Below, piece after piece: positions 15,590 to 20,695 of a stretch of 64,000 nt of DNA. Origin of the DNA: Oscillatoria sp. SIO1A7 (GTDB lineage Bacteria > Cyanobacteriota > Cyanobacteriia > Cyanobacteriales > Laspinemataceae); assembly GCA_010672965.1 (NCBI GenBank), contig JAAHFN010000001.1, positions 206,118-270,117 of the forward strand. Reading direction: 5' to 3'. Position 1 is the stretch's first letter. Each line of letters opens with the position of its first letter. A program made the translations under genes and the position numbers. The notes below the pieces were generated by a model. The model was not told the DNA's origin and did not search any database. It was given only the letters and a program-made list of their open reading frames with translations.

Positions 15590-18500
15590 ATGGCAATTGG
15601 AACGAACAACGCAGAGGCCCTGCAAGCGACCCTCGTCGATCCTGAAATCATTGCCCTATCGGGAAACGATACGGCACTCGGAAGCACCGGCGATGACAAT
15701 ATCAATGGCAACCAAGGAGATGACTTAATCTTTGGTTCCACTGGCAATGACAGCTTGCGCGGAGGCCAGGGCAACGACCAGATTTTCGGCGAAGATGGCG
15801 AAGATACCGTCTGGGGCGACAAGGGGAATGACAATCTCTCCGGCGGTAACGGAAACGACCAAATCTTTGGCGGCGAAGGAAACGACCAAGTCTTTGGCAA
15901 TGCCGGAGCAGATTTCATCAATGGCAACCAGGGTAACGATACTCTCCGGGGAGGCGAGGATAACGACACGGTACGCGGGGGCCAAGGTAACGACAGCATT
16001 TTTGGCGATAAAGGCAACGATTCCCTTTATGGGGATAAAGGTGCAGATACCCTCGTCGGTGGCGCTGGCAGCGATTGCTTTGTTATTGGCAATGGCACCG
16101 GCGGACCCAATTTAGCCGATGCGGACTTGATTAGCGACTATACCGACGGTACGGATCGAATTGCCTTACTGGACGGTCTGACTTTTGCGGATTTGACTAT
16201 TGCCAACGGAACTGGGGCCTTCGCTACCGATACGACTATCCGCGTTACTGCTACCGGGGAATGGTTGGCTCGTATCGCCGGAGTGAACGCTGCCAGTATT
16301 ACGGCGTCGGATTTCAAAGGAGACACGCCAGCCCCGCCAGCCCCGACACCGCCGCCACCTCCAGCACCATCCCCAGTAGCCCCGCCACCACCGCCACCTG
16401 CAGCCCAAAATATAGGAGGCCCGCCACCGGACTTGGCGGTAATTCCAGCAGTACCGCCACCGGCACCACCAGCGCCACCACCGCCGCCACCGCCGCCAGT
16501 TGCCAGCATTGCAGCAGGCACTACGCCGACTGAGGCTGGCCCAACAAACGGAACCTTCACGGTCACTCTAGACACGGCACCAACGGCAGATGTGGCGATC
16601 GGCTATTCCTTCAATGGCAGTACGGCTACGGGCGGTGGCGTTGACTATAGCGATCCTGGCGACGGCAGCATTACCATTGCGGCCGGTCAAACCACTGGCA
16701 CGATTACCACTAATATCGTCGATGATAGCCTGGTAGATCCCGACGAGACGATAATAGCGACTTTGAGTCCTGGAAGCGGCTACACTGTGGGTAGCACCAA
16801 CACCGCTACCTTGACCATAGCCGACAACGATCCATCTACGATCTCAATCGTTCAGGGCGTAACTCCCCAAGAAGACGATCCCACCACAACTGCATCGGAT
16901 CCAGTTAATGGCACGTTTGTTCTGACCCGCGTTGGTTCCCCAGCTCAGATATCCCAGGCTCTAACTGTAAATTACACAATTGGTGGTACAGCCACTGCTG
17001 GCACTGACTTTAATGACCTGGGCAATGAAAGCGTTACATTCAATCCTGGAGACGCGGAGGCTATTATCCAGATACGGCCTATTAACGACAGCGATACTGA
17101 CCCGGGCGAAACAGTAACTGCTACTATAACTGCTCCCACTGGCTATAGCATAGACGGAGCGGCTGCCCAAACTTTGACCATCTTGGATGATGACGTTCCG
17201 TCCGTGAGCATCAATGCCGCTCCAGGCAATGCCAGGGAATGGGATGCGACCTTGGCTCCTCCTGCTCCCGTTAACGGTACTTTTAACTTGATTCGCACGG
17301 GCGCAAACACTAGCGCTCTGACTGTTCCGATCTCTATTGGTGGTACGGCAAGTACAACCGATGGCACCGACTATACCATTACTGATGGTAATGGCAATAA
17401 CCTTGCAGGGGCTACGGAGATTACAATCCCAGCGAACGTATCTTCGGTTCCAATTACAGTGACCCCCGTAAGGGATGCCGATATAACCGAGACGGGCAAT
17501 GAGACGGTGGACATTACCATCCAGGCTGCTACCGCTACTCCGGTTAACTACTTTGTTCAGGGTTCTCCCACTGCTTCGCTGACAATTGAGGACGAAGCCT
17601 TGACAGTAGCAATAGCTGCTGGAACGACGACCCCAACGGAAGCGGGTTCAACAGCAGGCACATTTACTCTCACCCGTACTGGAAGCCCCACCAACGAGCT
17701 AAGGGGTGTTGCTTATACAGTCGGCGGTACAGCGACCAATGGCACAGACTACGCCGCCTTGCTTGGTACTGTTGACTTTGCGGCGGGTTCGGCCACTGCT
17801 ACGATTACGGTCACTCCCACTGGTGACGACGGTTTCGTCGATCCCAATGAAACAGTGGATATAACCCTAGACAGTCCGCCCGTTGCGGGTTTCACTGCCC
17901 TAGCCGGTTCCAACAATGCTTCGCTGACAATTTTGGACGCGCAACCGTTCGTTCAGGTGAACATCACGGCAGGTGCGGGAGCAACTGAGGCGAATACAGC
18001 AGCAGGTTCAGGCGGCACTTTTACTCTGACGCGAGCGGGAGACACCACGAACGCCGTCAACGTAACTTATGACATCACCGGCACTGCCACAGAAGGCGCG
18101 GCCAATGATTATACTCTTAACAGCCTCGCTGCCAATCCGGCTGGTACTACAGTCACGAATACTGGGGCTACAATCCCCGCCGGTGCCAGCAGTATCACAA
18201 TTGAGGTGATTCCAGTCGATGATGGTGTCGGTGAGGGTGCTGAAAACGTAACTTTAAACGTGACGGATAACGCTCAGACTTACGCTATAGGAATCAGCTC
18301 TGCTACTATACAAATTGCAGATAACGACGGAACTCCTGGACCTGACGTGCTTACTGGAACTGGCATTCTGGCAGGGGGCGATGGCGATGACAACATCACA
18401 GCGACCGCCGCTGGTGCGACTTTAATTGGCGGTCTTGGCAATGACACCCTAACGGGTGGCGCTGGCAACGACCAGTTCCGGTTTAATGCCACAAATGAAG

Positions 18501-18787
18501 GGCAAGACACTATCAACAACTTTAACGCTGCTGGTACCGATACGATTCAAGTGGCCTCGGGTTCCTTTGGCGGCCTAGCTCCAACGAGCAATCCAGCGCC
18601 CACTACCCAGTTTATCAGTGGTGCAGGTACTGTGGCGGCCAATGGTGCTGGAGCGCCCCAGTTTATCTATGATACGACCAGTGGTCAGTTGCGCTACGAT
18701 GCAGACGGTGTTGCGGGTGGAGAGATATTGCTGGCGACTCTAGCAGGGGCACCTGCTCTGGGCAACGCTAACATTGTTTACGTCTAA
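15590..18787 (+). CDS. RTX/Calx-beta calcium-binding protein, copy 2
   Basis: The 1065-residue paralog of the protein at 11513 has the same order: N-terminal RTX block, proline-rich linker, five Calx-beta domains, C-terminal RTX block and QFIYDTTSGQLRYDADG module. Differences are informative. The N-terminal RTX block has one more nonapeptide pair (GGEGNDQVFGNAGADF). The linker is longer and nearly pure Pro/Ala (PAPPAPTPPPPPAPSP). Calx-beta repeats three to five carry replaced segments (for example IGGTASTTDGTDYTITDG, and AYTVGGTATNGTDYAALL). Other parts are identical over long stretches. This mosaic suggests gene conversion or domain swapping after duplication. The ribosome binding site GAGGAG and the start are conserved with copy 1. 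Confidence 0.9.
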   Translation: MAIGTNNAEALQATLVDPEIIALSGNDTALGSTGDDNINGNQGDDLIFGSTGNDSLRGGQGNDQIFGEDGEDTVWGDKGNDNLSGGNGNDQIFGGEGNDQVFGNAGADFINGNQGNDTLRGGEDNDTVRGGQGNDSIFGDKGNDSLYGDKGADTLVGGAGSDCFVIGNGTGGPNLADADLISDYTDGTDRIALLDGLTFADLTIANGTGAFATDTTIRVTATGEWLARIAGVNAASITASDFKGDTPAPPAPTPPPPPAPSPVAPPPPPPAAQNIGGPPPDLAVIPAVPPPAPPAPPPPPPPPVASIAAGTTPTEAGPTNGTFTVTLDTAPTADVAIGYSFNGSTATGGGVDYSDPGDGSITIAAGQTTGTITTNIVDDSLVDPDETIIATLSPGSGYTVGSTNTATLTIADNDPSTISIVQGVTPQEDDPTTTASDPVNGTFVLTRVGSPAQISQALTVNYTIGGTATAGTDFNDLGNESVTFNPGDAEAIIQIRPINDSDTDPGETVTATITAPTGYSIDGAAAQTLTILDDDVPSVSINAAPGNAREWDATLAPPAPVNGTFNLIRTGANTSALTVPISIGGTASTTDGTDYTITDGNGNNLAGATEITIPANVSSVPITVTPVRDADITETGNETVDITIQAATATPVNYFVQGSPTASLTIEDEALTVAIAAGTTTPTEAGSTAGTFTLTRTGSPTNELRGVAYTVGGTATNGTDYAALLGTVDFAAGSATATITVTPTGDDGFVDPNETVDITLDSPPVAGFTALAGSNNASLTILDAQPFVQVNITAGAGATEANTAAGSGGTFTLTRAGDTTNAVNVTYDITGTATEGAANDYTLNSLAANPAGTTVTNTGATIPAGASSITIEVIPVDDGVGEGAENVTLNVTDNAQTYAIGISSATIQIADNDGTPGPDVLTGTGILAGGDGDDNITATAAGATLIGGLGNDTLTGGAGNDQFRFNATNEGQDTINNFNAAGTDTIQVASGSFGGLAPTSNPAPTTQFISGAGTVAANGAGAPQFIYDTTSGQLRYDADGVAGGEILLATLAGAPALGNANIVYV

Positions 18788-19006: not shown

Positions 19007-19174
19007 AGTTTGGTTTCTCAAACAATACCTTCGTCAAATACGGGGCCATTCAGAGGGTTGGCCGCGAATACTTGTAGTGCCAAACAATCTGTTGGCCGGG
19101 GATGGAGTAATGGCGATCGCTCTCTGTAACATTAGGCTATACGACAGTGGAGAAGCTACAGAAGCTGCAGAAAA

Positions 19175-19227
19175 TGCAAAAAATTTTTGCAGCCAGTGTT
19201 GTTTTTCTCGAAAAACCGTGCTATGAT
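19175..19227 (+). promoter_or_regulatory. Promoter with two palindromes
   Basis: TTGTTT (19199-19204) and TATGAT (19222-19227) have 17-bp spacing. A perfect palindrome TGCAAAAAATTTTTGCA (19175-19191) lies just upstream of the -35 hexamer. A second, GTTTTTCTCGAAAAAC (19201-19216), lies between the hexamers. Both are placed where activator or repressor sites would be. The regulator is unknown. Confidence 0.6.
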
Positions 19228-19233
19228 ACTTTT

Positions 19234-19517
19234 ATAGCTTCCTTCCATGAGGGGGCAAAAAACAGGGCCACTAACCGTGACCCTTTGACAGTAAACGAAC
19301 GTCAACCCTAGTAAAGAGGCGTTTTCAATCAAGGAAAAAAACTTCTCTCTTAACCGGACTGGCACGGAGTAAGCCAATGGACTAGGGAAAGTCAGAGATT
19401 GGCATACTCCAAAGCTAGCCCGGGTGGGAAGACAGCCCACCCAAAAACCCGCAGCTATCTCACAACAGATCGCCGCAGGGGGTGGGTTTCCTTGGGAGAA
19501 ATTCGCCTTTTTTTTTT
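19234..19517 (+). ncRNA. Unidentified structured RNA candidate
   Basis: About 284 nt lie between a promoter and a T10 run at 19508-19517 and contain successive hairpins. They are GGGCCAC/GTGACCC (19265-19283), TTGAC/GTCAA (19285-19305), a long 13-bp stem GGAGTAAGCCAAT/ATTGGCATACTCC with one mismatch (19366-19410) and an inner GACT/AGTC pair, GGGTGGG/CCCACCC (19422-19442), and AAACCC/GGGTTT (19445-19499). No convincing protein frame exists on this strand. It does not show the motifs I know for tmRNA, RNase P RNA, signal recognition particle RNA, or the TPP and cobalamin riboswitches. It is followed by repeats, not a co-oriented gene, so a free-standing small RNA is more likely than a riboswitch. 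Confidence 0.55.
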
Positions 19518-19663: not shown

Positions 19664-19934
19664 ATGTTGCCTATCCGTTGCCACCATAAGCTACCTATCC
19701 GTTGCCACCATAAGCTACCTATCCGTTGCCACCATAAGCTACCTATCCGTTGCCACCATAAGCTACCTATCCGTTGCCACCATCAGCTACCTATCCGTTG
19801 CCACCATAAGCTACCTATCCGTTGCCACCATAAGCTACCTATCCGTTGCCACCATCAGCTACCTATCCGTTGCCACCATAAGCTACCTATCCGTTGCCAC
19901 CATAAGCTACCTATCCGTTGCCACCTATCCGTTG
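19664..19934. repeat. 24-bp tandem array
   Basis: Ten full units of a 24-bp repeat with core CCGTTGCCACCATAAGCTAC, plus a partial unit. Units five and eight carry CATCAGC in place of CATAAGC; the others appear identical. Because 24 is a multiple of three, the array is open in several frames but codes for nothing recognisable. The same motif in inverse form builds the array at 62660-63300. It is not a CRISPR, as there are no spacers. Confidence 0.9.
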
Positions 19935-19942
19935 CCAGATTG

Positions 19943-20695
19943 CTATATTTCGTCCGGGTTAACTCCCATTTCTAGCAACCGCTGGGCAAGCCTTTCGGCC
20001 CGTTGGCGTTCGGTTTCAGCCCGTTCTTCTAGCGTTTTGATTTTGGCTTTTTCTTCCTTAATTAGTCCTTCGACTAGGGGAGGATCTAGCAGTTCTTTTA
20101 CCGATAAAACTAGCCCCTCGAACTGACCGGAACTAATTGAAGCATCCTCGGTAAAATCCACAAAACTATATCCTTCCTCTTGGCTGGGGTTCGCAAACAC
20201 CCGAACCAGTTTCTTTTTCGGATCTACTATCCAATATTCTGGTACTTCTGCCACCTCATATTCGTGACGCTTGCTTACATAATCGTCCCGGCGATCGCTG
20301 CTGACAATTTCCACCACCACAATGGGTTTTTCGTCAAAATCCAAAACTCCAGCACCCGGGCGGTTGCCGACTCCCTCCCAAAGACTTTGAGAGCAAACGA
20401 GCGCATCGGGAATTCGAGCTGAATTATCCTCAGTTCTAACACCGACAGTCTTTTTCGCCACCAAGGATAAATTTTTATCGGCAAAGTAACGCTGTAAGTT
20501 GTAAATTAAGAATTCACATATTTTTATCTGCTCTATAGTTAGTGCAGACATCGGTATTAGTTTTCCCCTGACTAACTCATAGATAACATCCGGTTCTCCT
20601 TCATACTCTAGATATTCTGGGAAGGTTAACAGATCTTCCTTTTCTTGAGGAGAGCGGATAGCCACTTCCGCTTCGGGGACGACAGCTTGCGTCAT
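19943..20695 (-). CDS. Uma2-family (DUF820) endonuclease-like protein
   Basis: The 250-residue protein has the Uma2/DUF820 restriction-endonuclease-like fold, extremely abundant in cyanobacteria. Visible motifs are EYLEYEGEPDVIYELVRGKL (conserved Glu), VGVRTEDNSARIPDALVCS with the catalytic-type Pro-Asp, IVVVEIVSSDRRDDYVSKRH (E and K of the PD-(D/E)xK set), and AEVPEYWIVDPKKKLVRVF. A C-terminal coiled tail (about 210-245) is rich in Glu/Arg (EERAETERQRAERLAQRL), and GVNPDEI at the end is typical. GGAGG lies six bases before the ATG. The role is unknown; it is often linked with mobile DNA. The stop is adjacent to the 24-bp array. Confidence 0.9.
   Translation of the reverse strand: MTQAVVPEAEVAIRSPQEKEDLLTFPEYLEYEGEPDVIYELVRGKLIPMSALTIEQIKICEFLIYNLQRYFADKNLSLVAKKTVGVRTEDNSARIPDALVCSQSLWEGVGNRPGAGVLDFDEKPIVVVEIVSSDRRDDYVSKRHEYEVAEVPEYWIVDPKKKLVRVFANPSQEEGYSFVDFTEDASISSGQFEGLVLSVKELLDPPLVEGLIKEEKAKIKTLEERAETERQRAERLAQRLLEMGVNPDEI

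Follow-up and report, generated by a model that had tools for sequence, protein, structure and literature searches.

The window analysed here is a stretch of 64,000 nucleotides (nt) from the Oscillatoria sp. SIO1A7 genome (assembly GCA_010672965.1, contig JAAHFN010000001.1, positions 206,118 to 270,117, forward strand). Its segment 19139-19517 carries a predicted structured RNA with its own promoter. Related copies are scattered over this 9.08 Mb cyanobacterial genome, which holds about 122 loci of the family in all. A first-pass annotation, made from the letters alone, had proposed a free-standing structured RNA at this place, a proposal that the copy number, the conserved promoter and the covarying fold support; the family size, the hypervariable segment and the longer 3' part of most copies lay beyond its reach. 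The features of the window copy are the following.

19062 to 19138, plus strand: upstream stretch, conserved in a large subset of copies and unrelated in older ones.
19144 to 19191, plus strand: upstream control region, 9-bp TGCAGAAA-type repeats followed at its end by a palindrome, TGCAAAAAATTTTTGCA.
19199 to 19227, plus strand: promoter, with -35 TTGTTT (19199-19204), a 17-bp spacer and -10 TATGAT (19222-19227).
19234 to 19517, plus strand: predicted RNA in its window version, from a start near 19234 to a T10 end, based on fold energy and the family alignment.
19237 to 19256, plus strand: hairpin H1, whose pairs are retained in most copies.
19264 to 19285, plus strand: hairpin H2 (AGGG...CCCT), likewise retained in most copies.
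19286 to 19305 (approximate), plus strand: hypervariable segment (VAR), A-rich and mostly unpaired, between H2 and an AAGGAGG motif.
19310 to 19320, plus strand: AAGGAGGT-like motif (AGTAAAGAGGC in the window), complementary to a downstream ACCTCCTTGC in about 60% of copies.
19342 to 19501, plus strand: three-way junction core, closed by helix P1 (19342-19349 with 19494-19501).
19354 to 19423, plus strand: arm P2 (helices 2-5), including the stem 19366-19375 with 19401-19410.
19426 to 19491, plus strand: arm P3/P4 (helices 6-8), GGGAA-bulge-CCCACCC with GGGTGGG-TTTCC and the inner stem P4.
19508 to 19517, plus strand: T10 run, the likely terminator of the six-copy subfamily to which the window belongs; other copies have a weaker T-run.

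Whole-genome BLAST with this segment returned at least 40 full-length copies at 71-93% identity. A covariance model search of the genome placed 122 sites above 43 bits, the next two scoring about 17 bits or less, which is noise; the first RNA model (R1), whose MAFFT-based structure was poor (17 pairs), was still usable for searching. The copies are spread over dozens of contigs. The alignment comprised 118 distinct copies, complete or nearly so, with a median pairwise identity of 64%, and young subfamilies were 87-93% identical. Because about 122 paralogous copies keep the element, the observation is far beyond chance; the existence of a structured RNA family is nearly certain. Five copies are clustered at L127 2496-4386 (G000:C96:30492-32385), partly as a tandem array with a spacing of about 480 bp and some identical units. 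On a 22 kb contig (L162/L163, G000:C174) a copy lies at the contig start beside a ParB partition gene, and the downstream D block described below lies at the opposite end, an arrangement that suggests a possibly circular plasmid.

Outside this genome the family was not found. BLAST of 58 relatives gave no credible copy, nor did model searches of genomes from the phylum (385) and from the order (390), two overlapping sets in which the best stray match reached 26 bits. Two exact patterns had zero matches in 84,980 species genomes and zero in viral contigs, and phage and plasmid searches also yielded zero family copies. The family was thus found in one species only, meaning one genome among those searched, and some of the searches may not have covered records of this genome itself. 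As the first-pass annotation had stated, no known RNA family was matched: no Rfam 15 family reached its gathering threshold in the window, permissive matches being far below threshold and at chance level, and no transfer RNA or transfer-messenger RNA was detected at 19139-19517. By sequence comparison, these results show that the element is one of about 122 lineage-private structured RNA genes, each predicted to be transcribed separately.

The promoter read in the window, with its 17-bp spacing, had been recognised in the first-pass annotation, and a sigma-70-type promoter with the same spacing is kept in 110 of the 118 distinct copies. Across the family the -35 element is nearly always TTGNNN (mostly TTGAAA, TTGTTT or TTGACA) and the -10 element mostly TAATAT, TAAGAT or TACTAT. 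Two palindromes had been described, one upstream of the promoter and one inside it, and both are present, with different distributions. The AT-rich upstream palindrome (19175-19191) and the 9-bp repeats that precede it are family-wide features, the number of repeats being variable. The second one, TTTTTCTCGAAAAA, lies within the promoter spacer (19201-19214) and is specific to the window's subfamily, other copies having GAAATTCGAGCAAAAC instead. The region 19144-19191 may be an operator or an upstream promoter element, and this single shared upstream region would make the family resemble one regulon.

The strand folds at -108.9 kcal/mol, compared with -80.5 +/- 5.0 for shuffled sequences (z = -5.7; none of 200 shuffles was as good). 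The first-pass annotation read five consecutive hairpins here; the family fold consists instead of two 5' hairpins and, after them, a three-way junction that P1 closes and from which a long arm P2 and the arm P3/P4 extend. Among 106 distinct sequences, both sides had changed at 37 of the 51 pairs of the junction core. Compensatory changes were found in 20 of the 23 pairs of helices 2-5 and at all 8 pairs of helix 8; for the stem 19366-19410 (helices 4 and 5), where such changes had been named as the supporting observation, they occur at 11 of 14 pairs. Double-change cells numbered 252, compared with 89 after shuffling (reached by none of 500 shuffles) and 50-91 in slid controls, and 88.6% of cells were paired, compared with 83.5% in shuffles; the alignment used for these counts was itself fitted to the structure, although the slid and shuffled controls were far lower. 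Column mutual information, which is dominated by subfamily relatedness and slippage, was not used. An alternative hairpin GGGTGGG/CCCACCC at 19423-19443 was rejected in favour of the longer P3 helix because its 5' side changes without its partner. In conserved core columns, the closest copies differed 22 times where 48 differences were expected (P 3e-6). At the level of sequence, this suggests that individual copies, beyond the source copies, are under constraint.

The 3' part differs between copies, most of which are longer here than the window copy. The T10 run is present, but such a long run is a subfamily trait, most copies having a weaker T-run and a second candidate terminator downstream. 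In about 60% of copies a downstream extension ends in ACCTCCTTGC-TTTTT, which is able to pair with the conserved RNA motif AAGGAGGT; the window copy has lost this partner of its 19310-19320 motif. Given the downstream pairing partner in so many copies, the T-run of the window is probably a subfamily variant. When four copies were folded, the energy model closed the whole domain with a helix P0 formed by the ACCTCCTTGC pairing, and in most of the four the earlier T-run sat in another stem with AAACTAGGG. Among the 73 copies with the motif, hardly any variation occurs in the inner P0 pairs, which are hence little informative; at the sole position that is free to vary on either side, 41 copies form a pair, a count above that of every one of 500 shuffles. 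Most family members therefore probably end at the ACCTCCTTGC-T's, which would make their RNAs about 450 nt long or longer; the six-copy subfamily of the window, without a P0 partner, probably ends at its own long T-run.

The extension belongs to a second conserved (D) block, GGCTATTTGCACCAG...ACCTCCTTGCTTTTTGTAGATTCTACAAC, present at 61 loci, 50-500 nt downstream of the RNA and in the same orientation (for example L071 4734-4886 and L119 2834-2986). Its most constant part is ACCTCCTTGC followed by T's, complementary to GCAAGGAGGT of the RNA. Genome-wide the D block was seen solely beside RNA copies, barring weak matches at the ends of contigs C174 and C52, where the RNA copy may have been cut by the assembly. 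Since the downstream blocks were otherwise seen beside RNA copies only, no relics without the RNA were found. A third conserved block, GTGGAAACTAACTAATTTTTTTTTGGGTTTTAACTTATCAGA, occurs at about 30 loci, 200-750 nt downstream of the RNA and always in the same orientation (for example L134 2984-3135 and L046 1438-1619).

The absence of a protein frame, also claimed initially, does not hold literally, since frames of 54 amino acids (plus strand) and 121 amino acids (minus strand) exist, but a coding reading was rejected. The frames that cross the RNA are not the same from copy to copy, Pfam gave no match for the minus-strand frame, and an upstream GTG CAG AAA frame is broken between copies by length differences of 4 to 10 nt.

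VAR differs in nearly every copy. In the 48 closest disjoint pairs it had 0.415 substitutions per site, compared with 0.072 in the core. In 26 selected pairs of recent duplicates with shared flanks it had 0.20, compared with 0.058 upstream and 0.045 downstream, a divergence 4-5 times as fast as that of the flanking DNA (odds ratio 4.9; Fisher P 1e-27, an approximate value as some copies sit in several of the 26 pairs). The core of L099 and L104, for instance, differs at 1 of 172 positions and their VAR at 4 of 19; for L060 and L062 the corresponding values are 3 of 170 and 10 of 20. In a few close pairs VAR differs by merely one or two letters, so that its change is fast yet partly stepwise. 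A diversity-generating-retroelement pattern was considered and rejected, the changes extending beyond adenines. The segment is bound in length (26-31 nt between its anchors in nearly all copies) and consists of 46% A. Its unpaired probability is 0.60, compared with 0.47 for random sequence in the same place (P 4e-5), and shuffles of the same composition are equally unpaired. Because near-identical cores carry different VARs, pairing within the RNA is not its main constraint. Together, the alignments show that each copy combines its own putative promoter, the shared upstream region, two 5' hairpins, VAR, the purine motif and the covarying junction, and that VAR unites rapid divergence and narrow length with an A-rich make-up predicted to keep it unpaired.

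We favour, with confidence somewhat below even, a reading in which the copies are paralogous trans-acting RNAs, each combining a scaffold that is conserved with an address that varies. The scaffold would bind a common partner, either a protein or the ribosome, and would present VAR as an address, through which each copy would base-pair in trans with a different nucleic acid; the turnover of addresses may be driven by selection. The scaffold half of this mechanism draws on conservation and covariation, and the address role is suggested by how fast VAR changes, how open it is and how narrowly its length is limited. Variability of such a segment is usually seen under conflict or target turnover.

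Several results weigh against this interpretation. Target searches for VAR found none: the VAR of the window has no second genomic site within 2 mismatches, VAR matches to its own neighbourhood are no better than to other loci (split guides of 5-7 nt could escape such a comparison), and complementarity of 8-13 nt to host gene start regions showed no excess in 1.2 Mb of unseen genome. Genome-wide target statistics cover about 1.9 Mb in all. No neighbouring gene family was shared by position among 40 loci, and no linked protein gene was found there. As the flank rates come from recent duplicates whose neutrality is unproven, local hypermutation at VAR is possible. The fitting of the pair-count alignment to the structure, mentioned above, counts on the same side.

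The same data could be explained by an RNA that works through its scaffold only (protein or ribosome binding, dosage or sequestration), VAR being a drifting A-rich unpaired spacer, perhaps hypermutable. The composition, bounded length and openness of VAR, which shuffles of the same composition reproduce, fit such a spacer, as does its lack of complementarity to host targets; the AAGGAGG motif, which matches the anti-Shine-Dalgarno sequence of 16S ribosomal RNA, also counts in its favour. A spacer, however, does not obviously explain the retention of 122 copies, and since VAR outpaces the flanks of the same duplicates 4-5 times, mere lack of constraint is insufficient. We regard this explanation as rather unlikely, though as the most probable of the alternatives to the favoured reading.

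The null result at gene starts bears directly on a further alternative, that the family consists of classical paralogous regulatory small RNAs (sRNAs) whose VAR is a seed repressing different host mRNAs at translation start. Its architecture resembles that of multicopy sRNA families such as FopS (PMC11697453), with own promoters beneath a shared upstream region. However, for seeds of about 8 nt or more no excess at start regions was observed in the unseen 1.2 Mb, and coding mRNA shows, if anything, little complementarity. We hold this to be the least probable of the explanations considered. In the open reading frames of the first 0.4 Mb, VAR 12-mers complementary to mRNA were found once where about 11 were expected; an avoidance of antisense pairing read from this count was only weakly repeated in a pre-stated test on 1.2 Mb of unseen DNA (14 compared with 21, P 0.065; 11-mers, 87 compared with 103, P 0.059). 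Given this weak repeat, avoidance of coding-mRNA complementarity is not claimed and is retained as a lead, strong over L038-L161 and weak over L166-L225.

The dispersal of the copies could also indicate a selfish, non-autonomous mobile element, whose RNA would be required to copy the element or to select insertion sites, with VAR as the guide. About 122 dispersed copies with unrelated flanks, young subfamilies, tandem copies and the restriction to one species would agree with this. On the other hand, no transposase, recombinase or effector gene is linked to the copies among the neighbours at 40 loci, VAR matches to its own locus are no longer than those to other loci, and old copies as well as recent pairs preserve the promoter, the fold and the conserved columns. 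The terminal-repeat motif that was tested, ACAATACCTTCG/CGAAGGTATTGT, looked terminal in a few copies, but it is a common genome repeat that flanks both sides of one copy only, and the inverted-repeat transposon was rejected. The ends of the element are too diffuse for target-site duplications to be called. On balance a selfish element seems unlikely. The ACAATACCTTCG/CGAAGGTATTGT repeat itself occurs about 0.3 times per 10 kb genome-wide, for example upstream of the L075 RNA copy, and often adjoins a GAGAAACC...GGTTTCTC palindrome.

As to neighbouring sequences, the largest shared cluster proved to be the element itself read as open reading frames. In the window, a 1065-amino-acid protein that combines RTX calcium-binding repeats with Calx-beta domains is encoded upstream of the RNA (15590-18787). 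Downstream (19670-19925), a 24-bp tandem repeat, CCTATCCGTTGCCACCATAAGCTA, in 10.7 copies that are 98% identical, separates the RNA from a Uma2-family gene (19943-20695, minus strand).

A more specific form of address can also be envisaged, in which about 120 species-private single-guide RNA genes serve one ribonucleoprotein protein that is encoded elsewhere and holds the scaffold, the rewritten segment addressing foreign nucleic acid. We consider this doubtful; if true, it would represent a dispersed recognition repertoire unlike arrays of clustered regularly interspaced short palindromic repeats (CRISPR) or regulatory sRNAs. As in CRISPR RNAs and other guide repertoires, a constant scaffold is joined to a variable segment that differs per copy. 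In contrast to them, the copies are mostly dispersed single genes without shared neighbours instead of a direct-repeat array with cas genes, promoter and fold belong to every single unit, no adjacent effector gene was found, and VAR changes partly through stepwise substitution. The bridge RNA of IS110 (PMC11208160) is likewise structured and carries, within a repeated DNA element, an address segment that can be reprogrammed, but it has two loops, whereas the family described here has one variable segment, no linked recombinase and no longer matches of that segment to the insertion locus than to other loci.

Literature searches gave no match to the architecture of the family, and its closest known kind is the multicopy sRNA family; what sets it apart is its copy number, size and fold, its restriction to one species, and VAR. 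As in multicopy trans-acting sRNAs, several paralogs with own promoters are found in one genome, and as in FopS-type families these separately promoted genes are scattered and have sequence and structure in common. FopS, however, has 14 copies (12-15 per genome) across Bacteroidaceae, is about 65-70 nt long and has its seed in a conserved part (PMC11697453), whereas the present family numbers about 122 copies in one species, and its RNAs exceed 280 nt, form a covarying three-way junction and contain the hypervariable VAR. Other multicopy families include LhrC with 7 members, Qrr and the Cia-dependent sRNAs (PMC11697453). Reported bacterial families of paralogous sRNAs comprise about 2 to 15 members and often extend over a family of species; about 122 diverged members with one fold, one species and a fast VAR fall outside that range. 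The question raised is what VAR pairs with and what holds the scaffold. Like the candidate structured RNAs of comparative genomics (Weinberg et al. 2010, PMC2864571; Rfam), this RNA is an orphan whose structure covaries and to which no function is assigned; unlike them, it matches no Rfam model and is defined by paralogs within one genome. Cross-species scans would miss such an RNA, and single-genome families may therefore represent a blind spot of RNA discovery by methods that require homologs in other species.
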